Shown here: in pieces, positions 241 to 60,464 of the stretch | Layout: every line of letters begins with the position of its first letter | Numbering within the stretch: position 1 is the first letter of the stretch | Source of the DNA: Pseudomonadota bacterium | Lineage (GTDB): Bacteria; Desulfobacterota; Desulfobulbia; Desulfobulbales; JAGXFP01 | Assembly (NCBI GenBank): GCA_018814305.1 | Contig: JAHJAA010000048.1 | Span: 1 to 64,000, forward strand | Length of the DNA: 64,000 bases | Direction: 5' to 3' | Made by a program: the position numbers and the translations under genes | The notes under the pieces: generated by a model | Database searches by the model: none | What the model was told of the DNA's origin: nothing | What the model saw: the letters and a program-made list of their open reading frames with translations, nothing else

Positions 241-280
241 ACAAAAAAAATGCCCCGGTCTCTTGCGAAACCGGGGCATT
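241..280 (-). terminator. Rho-independent terminator of the HesB-like selenoprotein gene
   Basis: The arms AATGCCCCGGT (249-259) and ACCGGGGCATT (270-280) pair over 11 bp. Read on the minus strand the hairpin is followed by a run of T (A-run 243-250 on the plus strand). It lies about 20 bases past the TAA of the gene ending at 302, so transcription of that gene very likely stops here. Confidence 0.85.
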
Positions 281-301: not shown

Positions 302-637
302 TCAACCACAGCCCCCCGACCCACAGGAACTGCCGCAACCACTGCCGCCACCGGCGACCGGGATCTTGGAGGTAATGGTAAATCCAGAGCGCATTCCACT
401 CTCCATAAAGTCGATCTTGATGCTTTCACAATTCTTCATCAGATCATTGTCCACCAGGAAAGTCAGGTCACTCTGTTCGACGGTCATGTCATTCGTTTTT
501 GGCTCATCCAGAGCCAAGCCCAGAGAGGGCCCGGCTCAGCCACCCTGCATCAATGCGACCCGCAGGGCAGAATCAACGCTGTTCTGCTCCATGTAGGCCT
601 TCAAGTTCGTAATCGCTGTTTCTGTCACTTCAAGCAT
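302..637 (-). CDS. HesB-like selenoprotein (IscA/HesB family, Sec at codon 34)
   Basis: Small protein related to the A-type Fe-S scaffold proteins IscA/HesB. The ATG at 635-637 has a GGAGG site 8 bases upstream. Read from there, the frame runs 33 codons to a TGA (536-538) and then continues without a break to a TAA at 302, 111 residues in all. The TGA sits in the context MQGG-U-AGPSLGLALDEP, exactly where HesB/IscA proteins have the first cluster-binding Cys (GGC-x-G). The tail is Cys/Gly rich (SGCGSSCGSGGCG), replacing the usual CxC. A known family, TIGR01911 'HesB-like selenoprotein', has Sec at this place. A gene finder would call only the part downstream of TGA, from a false TTG at 517. 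selB in the same window supports Sec decoding. The gene is monocistronic with its own terminator. The substrate or partner is unknown; a role in Fe-S or selenium handling is inferred. Confidence 0.85.
513..538 (-). promoter_or_regulatory. Putative bacterial SECIS hairpin after the UGA codon
   Basis: Bacterial Sec insertion needs an mRNA hairpin directly 3' of the UGA that binds SelB. On the mRNA strand the bases just after UGA (538-536) can pair: GCC (535-533) with GGC (515-513), GG with UU by wobble, GCCC (530-527) with GGGC (521-518), leaving a UCUCU loop. The position is right, but the loop lacks the unpaired G usual in E. coli-type SECIS, so the exact fold is uncertain. Confidence 0.5.
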
Positions 638-928
638 AACCAACCCTCCGAAAATATTAATAAAACAGAAAATTATTACCGATTGTCAGAAGCGAATCAT
701 TTGGATCAATCCCAGATAACCCAACTCTCAATACACACATTATAACATATATGAATTTCGGGTAAAAGAGTCAACCTGCAATTTAAGAATAAATTTAAAT
801 AGAAACGATTCCCACTAAAACTATACATCAACCAGAATTGGTAATTTTCATGGATCTTTGGTCGAAAACTCGTACCTCCCTCCGATGTAAAAAATTGTTT
901 CTGGCGTCGTCAGTGAATGGTAGGGTAT

Positions 929-1311: not shown

Positions 1312-2412
1312 ATGAAACGAATTGTCATTTCCACCGGAGGCGGAGACGCCCCGGGCCTGAATGCAGTCATTCATGCCGTGGTCAAATCTGCAGATTCCAG
1401 AGATTGGGAGGTTTACGGTAGCCGCAGCGGGTACCTGGGACTCCTTGATCCCGATGAACTGATTCGGCTCACCCCGGAAAAGGTTGAGGATATAACTCCC
1501 ACCGGAGGAACCATTCTTGGATCCACCAATAAAGGCAATCCATTTGCCATGCCTGTTGAAAATCTGGCGGGTGAGATACAGATCAGGGATCTTTCCGAAC
1601 GGGTGATGAAAAACTTTAATCGCATGGGTTTTTTTTGCCACATCGCTGTAGGTGGTGACGGAAGTCTGGAAATCGCCCACCGTTTTGCCACCGAAAAGGG
1701 GATGCCGGTCATCGGGGTACCCAAGACCATTGACAATGATCTTGAAGCCACCGAACTGACCTTTGGTTTTGACACCGCAGTTTCCACCGCCACCGAGGCC
1801 CTGGACAAACTCCATTCCACAGCAAAATCCCATGACCGGGTGATGGTGGTGGAAGTCATGGGGAGAGAGTCTGGTTGGATCGCCCTCAACTCGGGGGTTT
1901 CTGGAGGAGCCGATGTGATTCTGATTCCAGAAATTCCCTTTGACACCCAGGTTATCTGTCGAAAACTCACCGACAACGAGCTCCATGGCAAGCATTACGC
2001 CATTGTGGTGGTGGCTGAAGGAGCCAAGTCACGTAACGGCCTAACTGTGATTCAAGATAATGATAAATGCGCGGTGGGACGCCAAGAGGTCCTGCTTGGT
2101 GGGATCGGCGAATGGGTGTCCCGCCAGATCAAGGAATGTGCAGGAAAAGACACCCGGACCATGGTTTTGGGTCATCTCCAGCGAGGTGGCTCGCCCACCA
2201 CTTTTGACCGTATGTTGGCGTTGCGTTTTGGTGCCGCCGCCGTTCGCATGGCCGAAGCCGGACAGTTCGATCAGATGGTGGCCTTAAGCAGCGGAAGCAT
2301 GAAAGCCGTGCCGCTGGCCGAGGCCATTAAGCAGCGAAAAAAAGTTCCTTTAGATAGTGATAAGATTCTTACCGCCCGGGAAATTGGCATCTGTCTTGGA
2401 GATGAATATTGA
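1312..2412 (+). CDS. pfkA: 6-phosphofructokinase, group III (ATP-type G, PPi-type K signature)
   Basis: Phosphorylates fructose 6-phosphate to the 1,6-bisphosphate in glycolysis. 366 residues from the ATG at 1312, which has AGGGAAGA just upstream; an upstream extension of the frame to 1216 has no ribosome site and does not resemble the family. Motifs seen: TGGGDAPGLNA at the N-terminus, GGDGS (Gly117) in the phosphoryl-donor site, PKTIDND (Lys138) with the catalytic Asp, and MGRESGW. In the family, Gly at the first place marks ATP use and Lys at the second is typical of PPi enzymes. The Gly/Lys combination is the mixed group III pattern known from actinomycete ATP enzymes, so ATP is the likelier donor, but PPi should be tested. 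It precedes the Fur-family gene by 70 bases on the same strand. Confidence 0.9.
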   Translation: MKRIVISTGGGDAPGLNAVIHAVVKSADSRDWEVYGSRSGYLGLLDPDELIRLTPEKVEDITPTGGTILGSTNKGNPFAMPVENLAGEIQIRDLSERVMKNFNRMGFFCHIAVGGDGSLEIAHRFATEKGMPVIGVPKTIDNDLEATELTFGFDTAVSTATEALDKLHSTAKSHDRVMVVEVMGRESGWIALNSGVSGGADVILIPEIPFDTQVICRKLTDNELHGKHYAIVVVAEGAKSRNGLTVIQDNDKCAVGRQEVLLGGIGEWVSRQIKECAGKDTRTMVLGHLQRGGSPTTFDRMLALRFGAAAVRMAEAGQFDQMVALSSGSMKAVPLAEAIKQRKKVPLDSDKILTAREIGICLGDEY

Positions 2413-58544: not shown

Positions 58545-60464
58545 CTAGGTCCGTTTCTCCCGAAGAACCCGTTTATCACCAATTCGTAAGGTGATTTTTC
58601 GTTGGTCGAAATACTCCAGAAGAGGAATGGAAAATTTCCGGGAAAGCCCGGTTAACCCCTTGAATCCCTGGGCATCAATTTCGGAGTATTGCCGAAGAAA
58701 AGCGATCAGTTCGGCCTCCAAACCGGCCAAGATCTCGGTGTAAAAATAAAGATCCTCGCTGACCTTGGTCAAGATATTTTCCCGAACCAGCACCCCGATC
58801 ATCTCTTTTACCAGTGGGGTTGGGCGGGAGGCGAAATGAGCAAAAAGCTCTTTGATTCTAGGGGCTTGCAAGGCAGCATCACGATAAAAGCAGAGTATCT
58901 CTTCATGGAGTTGACTATGGTCTTCAGCCATGGCCGGATTATGGTCAAAGGATTTCACCACGGAATCATCCTGAATCAGGAGTTTTTTCTGGGTAAGATC
59001 GGTCAGCAGAAACTGATATAGTTTCTGGTCAAGATTGGCGCCAAGACGACTCCGCAATTCCTCCTTGGATATCCCGGGCTGAAGAGGATTCTCCTGGTGA
59101 AAAGCCTCGACAAACTCGACAACGGTCTGTCGCAACTTGTCAACAACCTGGGCCGAGACCATCAGCTGACGGCTTGAGTCGATCATTACGGCCTGGCGGG
59201 TGGAGAGCGGAACATCAAGTACCTTTTTAAAACGGTTCCCGAAGAGTCCCATCTGGACCCCAAGCTGCTCTGCAGTCAAGCCGACAACTCCGGCTTCCCG
59301 AAGATGGAGGTTGATCAGGTCTGTATGATCCCCGTTTCGATAGCAGTCAAAAATCTCTTCATTACCAGTGCGAAACCGCCGTTTTTTGGCAGCATGACCA
59401 CTGTAAATAACCCCGCCACCGATGGTGTGAACCGGAGAATAACTCCGCACCACATAATGATCACCGGGCCAGGCGCAGGCCGGCTCTTCAAAGAGAAGTT
59501 GGGCGTTGCAGGAATCTCCCGGTTCGATCTCATCCCGATCCAACAGTACGATCCGCCCCATGATCTCGGCGGTGCCGAGATGAATTCTCACCCGACTCCG
59601 ATTCTTCATTTTTTTCCGGTTCGCCGAAAGGTAGAGGAATTCAACGTCCATAATATAGGACGGATTCAGGCTGCCGAGGGTGGCACAGACATCCCCGCGA
59701 TTGATGCTCTCCCGTTCAATTCCCTGGATATTGATGGCAGTACGATGCCCCGCTTCCACCTCCTGGATATCCCGGGTATGAACCTGGAGCCCCCGAATCC
59801 TGCCGAGATTCATGCCGGGATAGATACAGATCTCATCACCGACCTTTACCCGCCCGGAAATGGAGGTCCCGGTAACCACCGAACCAAAACCCTTGATGGA
59901 AAAAATCCGATCAACCGGGAGGCGAAAAGGCCCGAAGGCTTCGGTAAAAGCGGAGGCCGCGACCTGGCGATCCAATTCAGCGCGGACCTCGTCGATCCCG
60001 GACCCGGTCGTCGAAGATATGGCGATCATCGGGGCATCATCTAAAAAACTCCCGATAAAAAATTCTCTGATCTCATCTTGAACCAGTTCAAGCCACTCGG
60101 GCTCAACCAGATCTTTTTTAGTGACGATAATAATCCCGCGGTCAACCCCAAGCAGACGGCATATCTCAAAATGTTCACGGGTCTGGGGCATGATCCCCTC
60201 ATCGGCGGCGACGACAAAGGCCACCAGATCAATCCCGGCAGCCCCGGCCACCATATTCTTGATAAACTTCTCATGACCTGGAACATCAACGATTCCCAGT
60301 CGATGACCGCAGGGCAAATCAAGATAGGCAAAACCCAGTTCGATGGTTATCCCCCGGGCCTTTTCCTCTTTGAGGCGATCGGTGTCTATACCGGTCAGGG
60401 CCTTGACCAGACTGGTCTTGCCGTGATCCACATGACCGGCCGTACCCAAAACTATTTCACGCAT
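58545..60464 (-). CDS. selB: Selenocysteine-specific elongation factor SelB
   Basis: 639 residues. GTPase: [25 protein letters not shown]. Domains II/III to about 350, then the four winged helices of domain IV (about 380-639) that bind SECIS hairpins, ending [17 protein letters not shown]. Brings Sec-tRNA to UGA codons. A client, the HesB-like selenoprotein at 302-637, is in the same window. selA, selC and selD are not. It lies 5 bases after the metallo-hydrolase gene and 8 before hflX. Confidence 0.97.

Follow-up and report, generated by a model that had tools for sequence, protein, structure and literature searches.

A HesB-like selenoprotein gene with a covarying SECIS hairpin in a bacterium of the Desulfobulbales

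The gene and its surroundings

The window, the whole stretch of 64,000 nucleotides analysed here, contains on its minus strand a gene that opens with an ATG at 637-635, closes with a TGA at 304-302 and encodes 111 residues if a further, in-frame TGA at codon 34 is read through (Table 1). An earlier reading, made from the sequence only, had described an otherwise intact HesB/IscA-type gene with a ribosome site ahead of the ATG and a terminator behind the stop, and had predicted that a gene finder would truncate it. All of this was borne out: the coordinates of the TGA are exact, the reading frame is preserved before and after it, and the ribosome site and the terminator hairpin with its T-run are in place. 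To a standard gene finder codon 34 is a stop, and the protein would be cut at codon 33. The TGA stands in the context GG-U-AGPSLGLALDEP, and the predicted protein reads MLEVTETAITNLKAYMEQNSVDSALRVALMQGG-U-AGPSLGLALDEPK...GGGSGCGSSCGSGGCG. A search of the window at the Rfam gathering thresholds returned no matches.

Table 1. Features of the window, with positions counted from its first letter
Feature	Positions	Strand	Remarks
Intrinsic terminator, hairpin and T-run	249..280	-	14-bp stem
hesB-like selenoprotein CDS	302..637	-	111 codons, Sec34; NF038090, 140.8 bits; frame intact on TGA readthrough
Cys-rich tail CGSSCGSGGC	308..337	-	C101 invariant, C105 and C110 nearly so
SECIS hairpin TTGGCTC-TGGAT-GAGCCAA	499..517	-	inner stem in Sec genes, compensatory changes
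In-frame TGA, Sec codon 34	536..538	-	aligned with Cys35 of IscA
Ribosome-binding site GGAGGG	644..649	-	6 nt 5' of ATG 637, by sequence
Possible sigma-70 promoter TTTACC-16-TATAAT	739..766	-	consensus match only; number of such matches at chance level
Divergent 6-phosphofructokinase-like gene	1312..2412	+	product name from reading of the sequence alone
SelB, Sec-specific elongation factor, canonical copy	58545..60464	-	TIGR00475, 356 bits (cut-off 242)

We considered whether the terminal TGA might specify a second Sec and rejected the idea; in the window a frame continued past this codon enters the terminator, and a hairpin to match was not seen. We read the codon as an ordinary stop. In four Sec genes (L077, L096, L118 and L127) the terminal TGA is followed directly by TAA.

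Between hesB and the phosphofructokinase-like gene lies a 21-nt inverted repeat (90%), with its arms at 928-948 and 1106-1126 of the window, 157 nt apart, and a hairpin at 1087-1115 inside it. The repeat looks like the remnant of a small mobile element. Operon partners were also considered as a clue to function and set aside, because clustering of the neighbourhoods gave only the divergent upstream gene cluster, read as a phosphofructokinase-like gene and present in 17 related loci, and a few weaker links. The clustering found no functional partner conserved beside the Sec gene, and genomic context therefore does not establish an iron-sulfur role.

Codon 34 and the SECIS hairpin

Matches scoring over the family cut-off occur in 168 of the 395 sampled genomes of the phylum, and most of the matches among those listed for the phylum have exactly one in-frame TGA, a recurrence far in excess of chance. 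We read 96 homologous genes in full, and found that codon 34 is TGA in 67 of them and TGC or TGT in the other 29. The sequence-only reading had named a lack of homologues with Cys or U at position 34 as the finding that should count against it; both kinds are present. The gene is found with exactly one TGA in all five available genomes that belong to the same taxonomic family. A search of genome contigs with the single protein gave nine loci, several of them named Desulfobulbaceae or Desulforhopalus, and these names suggest a host of the Desulfobulbales type. The 67 genes that keep the TGA come from many bacterial families, and the protein sequence downstream of it is conserved as well. This comparison shows that the UGA at position 34 has been conserved as a sense codon.

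A further line of evidence is the RNA that follows the codon. The 45 nt from the TGA align without gaps over the 67 Sec genes, which have in common a hairpin with the consensus TTGGCTC-TGGAY-GAGCCAA, its stem starting about 19 nt after the UGA. All five inner pairs of this stem are present in 66 of the 67 Sec genes but in 2 of the 29 Cys genes (p about 2e-20, Fisher test); at the 15 loci that carry both a Sec and a Cys copy, they are present in every Sec copy and in no Cys copy. Compensatory changes replace C-G by U-A in eight sequences and G-C by U-A in one. We counted 9 double-change cells versus 1.0 in shuffles, none of the 500 shuffles attained the observed covariation score, and pairing was much poorer when the structure was slid along the alignment. 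Codon usage in the stem is likewise constrained: its Ala or Val codon ends in T in 67 of 67 Sec genes, and where it encodes Ala it is GCT in 59 of 59 cases; elsewhere in these genes GCT accounts for 53 of 339 Ala codons. Taken together, the pairing of the stem, its covariation and the GCT bias indicate selection on the RNA, as expected for a SECIS element. When the stretch from the window is folded alone, the lowest-energy structure is a longer alternative helix that has one arm in common with the SECIS hairpin; this helix is not general to the family, whereas the conserved hairpin is.

The stop called at codon 34 by a standard gene finder might suggest a pseudogene, an error in the sequence, or a short protein made from the part before or the part after the TGA, a reading that is refuted by the comparative data (the TGA in 67 genes of many families, the conservation downstream of it and the SECIS with its compensatory changes) and to which we assign practically no probability. 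It is thus confirmed that 637-302 is a SECIS-dependent selenoprotein gene and not a pseudogene.

The covarying hairpin separates the Sec genes of the family from its Cys genes. SelA was detected in 355 of the 395 genomes of the phylum, so frequently that its co-occurrence with the gene by itself carries little weight; the telling case is genome G210, where SelA is not detectable, the codon is TGT, and the five stem pairs are kept while the loop is changed. This stem is a fossil SECIS. Zhang et al. have described fossil SECIS elements in Cys genes, one of their examples being a HesB-like protein (PMC1794560). Two Cys genes retain the five inner pairs of the stem: that of G210 (L147) and the Cys gene of L019.

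UGA decoding in the genome

Selenium machinery is present in this genome. SelA lies on contig C70 (624 bits) and SelD, in its Cys form, on contig C19; the canonical SelB is in the window, and was found in all five genomes of the taxonomic family. Two molybdopterin oxidoreductases of the same genome, G000 (C7:196306-197580 and C5:73094-74362), and an MvhD/FlpD (C7:192200-192568) also have one in-frame TGA and are probably further selenoproteins.

The sole tRNA-Sec-like gene over threshold in the assembly is outside the window, at C19:3979-3887. It has the anticodon UCA and stands directly upstream of a second SelB, which is 29% identical to the SelB of the window. We rejected the tRNA-Sec call for this gene, which has an A1-U72 pair and U73 instead; G73 is held essential for tRNA-Sec (PMC5330540). 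With its A1-U72 pair, U73, UCA anticodon and downstream selB copy, the pair on C19 matches the SelC* tRNA-Cys/SelB* pairs of Desulfobacterales (PMC7609411). Annotation pipelines should therefore be used with care here, as gene finders would cut the selenoprotein at codon 33 and tRNA finders label a tRNA with SelC* features as tRNA-Sec. The SelC*-type tRNA and the divergent SelB that follows it (G000:C19:3979-1937, L019) stand in a cassette together with SelD (Cys form), YedF, a Cys HesB, a double-cubane reductase and its activator, MvhD and HdrA. We also considered C19 as contamination and dismissed this, because in tetranucleotide profile C19 is about as close to the window as another contig of the same genome is, and closer than loci from sibling genera.

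Since the SelC*/SelB* features stand alongside a canonical SelB, UGA possibly has two readers in this organism, which may carry two UGA decoders. It could then be argued that SelC* tRNA-Cys(UCA) and SelB* insert cysteine at this UGA in place of Sec, either always or in part of the protein made. The tRNA gene just described, adjoining a second SelB, favours such a reading, and so does an equivalent pair in another genome (G404:C104; L169 and L191), where the SelB* is 80% identical; G404 has both tRNAs, the SelC*-type and the canonical tRNA-Sec, and both SelBs. Several observations weigh on the other side. SelA and the canonical SelB are present, and no CysRS* was recognised on C19 or on the stretch of G404 that was read. 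The failure to find a canonical G73 tRNA-Sec in the 96.7%-complete assembly counts against Sec; the protein that adjoins selC in G002-G004 was also undetected there, in a search run without a positive control within this genome, and we therefore read the absence of a canonical selC as an assembly gap, in which the gene probably lies. Finally, the four sibling genomes G001-G004 have a canonical G73 tRNA-Sec and the equivalent TGA gene, without a close SelB*. Because these siblings keep both the TGA and the hairpin, Sec is by far the likelier residue at 34, and we consider decoding as cysteine to be improbable.

A mixed arrangement is conceivable, in which Sec-tRNA with SelB and SelC* with SelB* would let the one HesB-like gene yield either Sec or Cys at residue 34, besides the separate Cys paralogue beside the SelB* genes. 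We think this would be a long shot. If it were true, Sec and Cys would be switched by decoding and not by choice of gene.

Family, possible role and Sec/Cys exchange

The protein belongs to NF038090 (IscA_HesB_Se, NCBIfam), which it matches with 140.8 bits over residues 1-102, against a curated cut-off of 85. The sequence-only reading had assigned it to TIGR01911 (HesB_rel_seleno). We had to correct this assignment, because the score of 42.8 bits lies under the curated cut-off of 66.35, although the protein is homologous to TIGR01911 over 84 residues and has the Sec region in common with it. The PF01521 model of A-type Fe-S carriers is matched with 35.2 bits (gathering threshold 26.3), and scores are under the cut-off for all IscA, SufA and ErpA equivalog models. 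HesB-like selenoproteins, a family already published by Zhang et al. in 2006 (PMC1794560), carry a UxGP motif (PMC13188914). Like the protein described here, in which the motif is U34-A-G-P, the family has Sec at the identical place, includes Cys versions and counts Deltaproteobacteria among its hosts. We see no essential difference from it; a 2026 review files the family under TIGR01911, the cut-off of which our protein does not reach. HesB-like selenoproteins have thus been known since at least 2006, and one has been labelled with 75Se; the gene in the window adds a securely supported member.

Residue 34 aligns with the first cluster-binding cysteine, Cys35, of E. coli IscA (GCSG in 1s98) through a profile of 67 family members, and this profile matches the structures of IscA and SufA. 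The AlphaFold2 model is confident in its core (mean pLDDT 81.8) and of low confidence in the Cys-rich tail, and a Foldseek search with this model has IscA and SufA as its best matches; the fold is predicted to be IscA-like. In common with IscA, SufA and ErpA, the protein has the fold, the position of the first ligand, the glycine two residues on and the tail cysteines. It differs from them in having Sec for Cys35, and a tail of the form C-X3-C-X4-C where theirs is C-G-C. The central claim of the sequence-only reading, that in this HesB-like selenoprotein Sec takes the place of the first cluster-binding cysteine, holds on the strength of this alignment, the homologues with U or C at 34, the TGA-specific SECIS, and SelA and SelB.

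In 67 aligned proteins, position 34 is always U or C and C101 never varies; C105 and C110 are each conserved in at least 90%. The spacing is U34-X66-C101-X3-C105-X4-C110; neither the classical CGC tail nor the Cys-Xn-Cys-X-Cys ligand motif of A-type carriers (PMC7144353) is present. The earlier suggestion of a selenolate beside a CGSSCGSGGC tail is therefore retained in part: the tail is there, as C101-X3-C105-X4-C110 and not as a classical CGC, and the placing of a selenolate in a cluster or redox site is something we infer.

On balance we lean towards regarding the product as a stand-alone, A-type-carrier-like selenoprotein. SelB with Sec-tRNA would bind the hairpin, so that Sec is inserted at position 34, and the final TGA, which has no such hairpin, would terminate translation; this part of the mechanism is well founded and very probable. 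Beyond this, Sec34 and the cysteines C101, C105 and C110 of a mobile tail might transiently hold an Fe-S cluster or iron and deliver it to clients among the enzymes of anaerobic electron transfer. A selenolate would make rapid ligand exchange or reversible oxidation possible, with the Cys copies taking over under selenium shortage. The invariant U/C34 and C101 and the near-invariant C105 and C110 suit a metal or cluster site formed by Sec34 and the tail. We put the carrier role forward tentatively.

The protein may instead handle redox reactions of thiols and selenols, or metals, forming a selenenylsulfide between Sec34 and a tail cysteine, and not be an Fe-S carrier. Its tail is rich in cysteines with C-X3-C-X4-C spacing and not CGC, and in most families where Sec derives from Cys it sits at a redox-active cysteine (PMC1794560). 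Methanococcus maripaludis has a HesB-like selenoprotein, MMJJ_08070, described as distantly related to IscA and identified through mutagenesis and 75Se labelling; the gene can be disrupted, and the mutant is unimpaired in nitrogen fixation (PMC11097638). This protein is archaeal and we liken ours to it by description alone. Points to the contrary are that the protein agrees with A-type carriers in its fold and in where Sec34 is placed, that no UxxC or CxxU redox pair occurs at Sec34, and that a gene for an Fe-S reductase accompanies the Cys paralogue. In this genome the paralogue lies directly before the double-cubane Fe-S reductase and its activator; HdrA and MvhD are close by. The sibling genome G001 has an identical layout. 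By association only, this context supports an Fe-S-related role for the family. Given the conservation of the cysteine sites, the non-CGC tail, a context of association only and the M. maripaludis mutant, we keep the carrier as the tentative choice and regard redox or metal handling as a rather doubtful one.

Conversions between Sec and Cys in the HesB-like family were reported by Zhang et al. (PMC1794560), so the phenomenon itself is already known. In a tree of 96 proteins, which was built from 111 columns and is therefore short, with many forks unresolved, well-supported branches call for no fewer than 9 changes of the Sec/Cys label; parsimony requires 12 changes, versus about 25 for shuffled labels. 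Tandem pairs of a Sec and a Cys gene occur in at least four bacterial families (f2, f19, f36 and f44). The TGA and the Cys codon of such a pair lie on one strand with about 0.4-1 kb between them, and only the Sec copy has the full SECIS stem. The number of changes and the repeated tandem pairs exceed what open papers were found to report, and the pairs are natural experiments on the benefit of selenium in an iron-sulfur-carrier fold. The loci with tandem pairs are L075, L076, L077, L084, L104, L107, L111, L113, L129, L133 and L140-L144.
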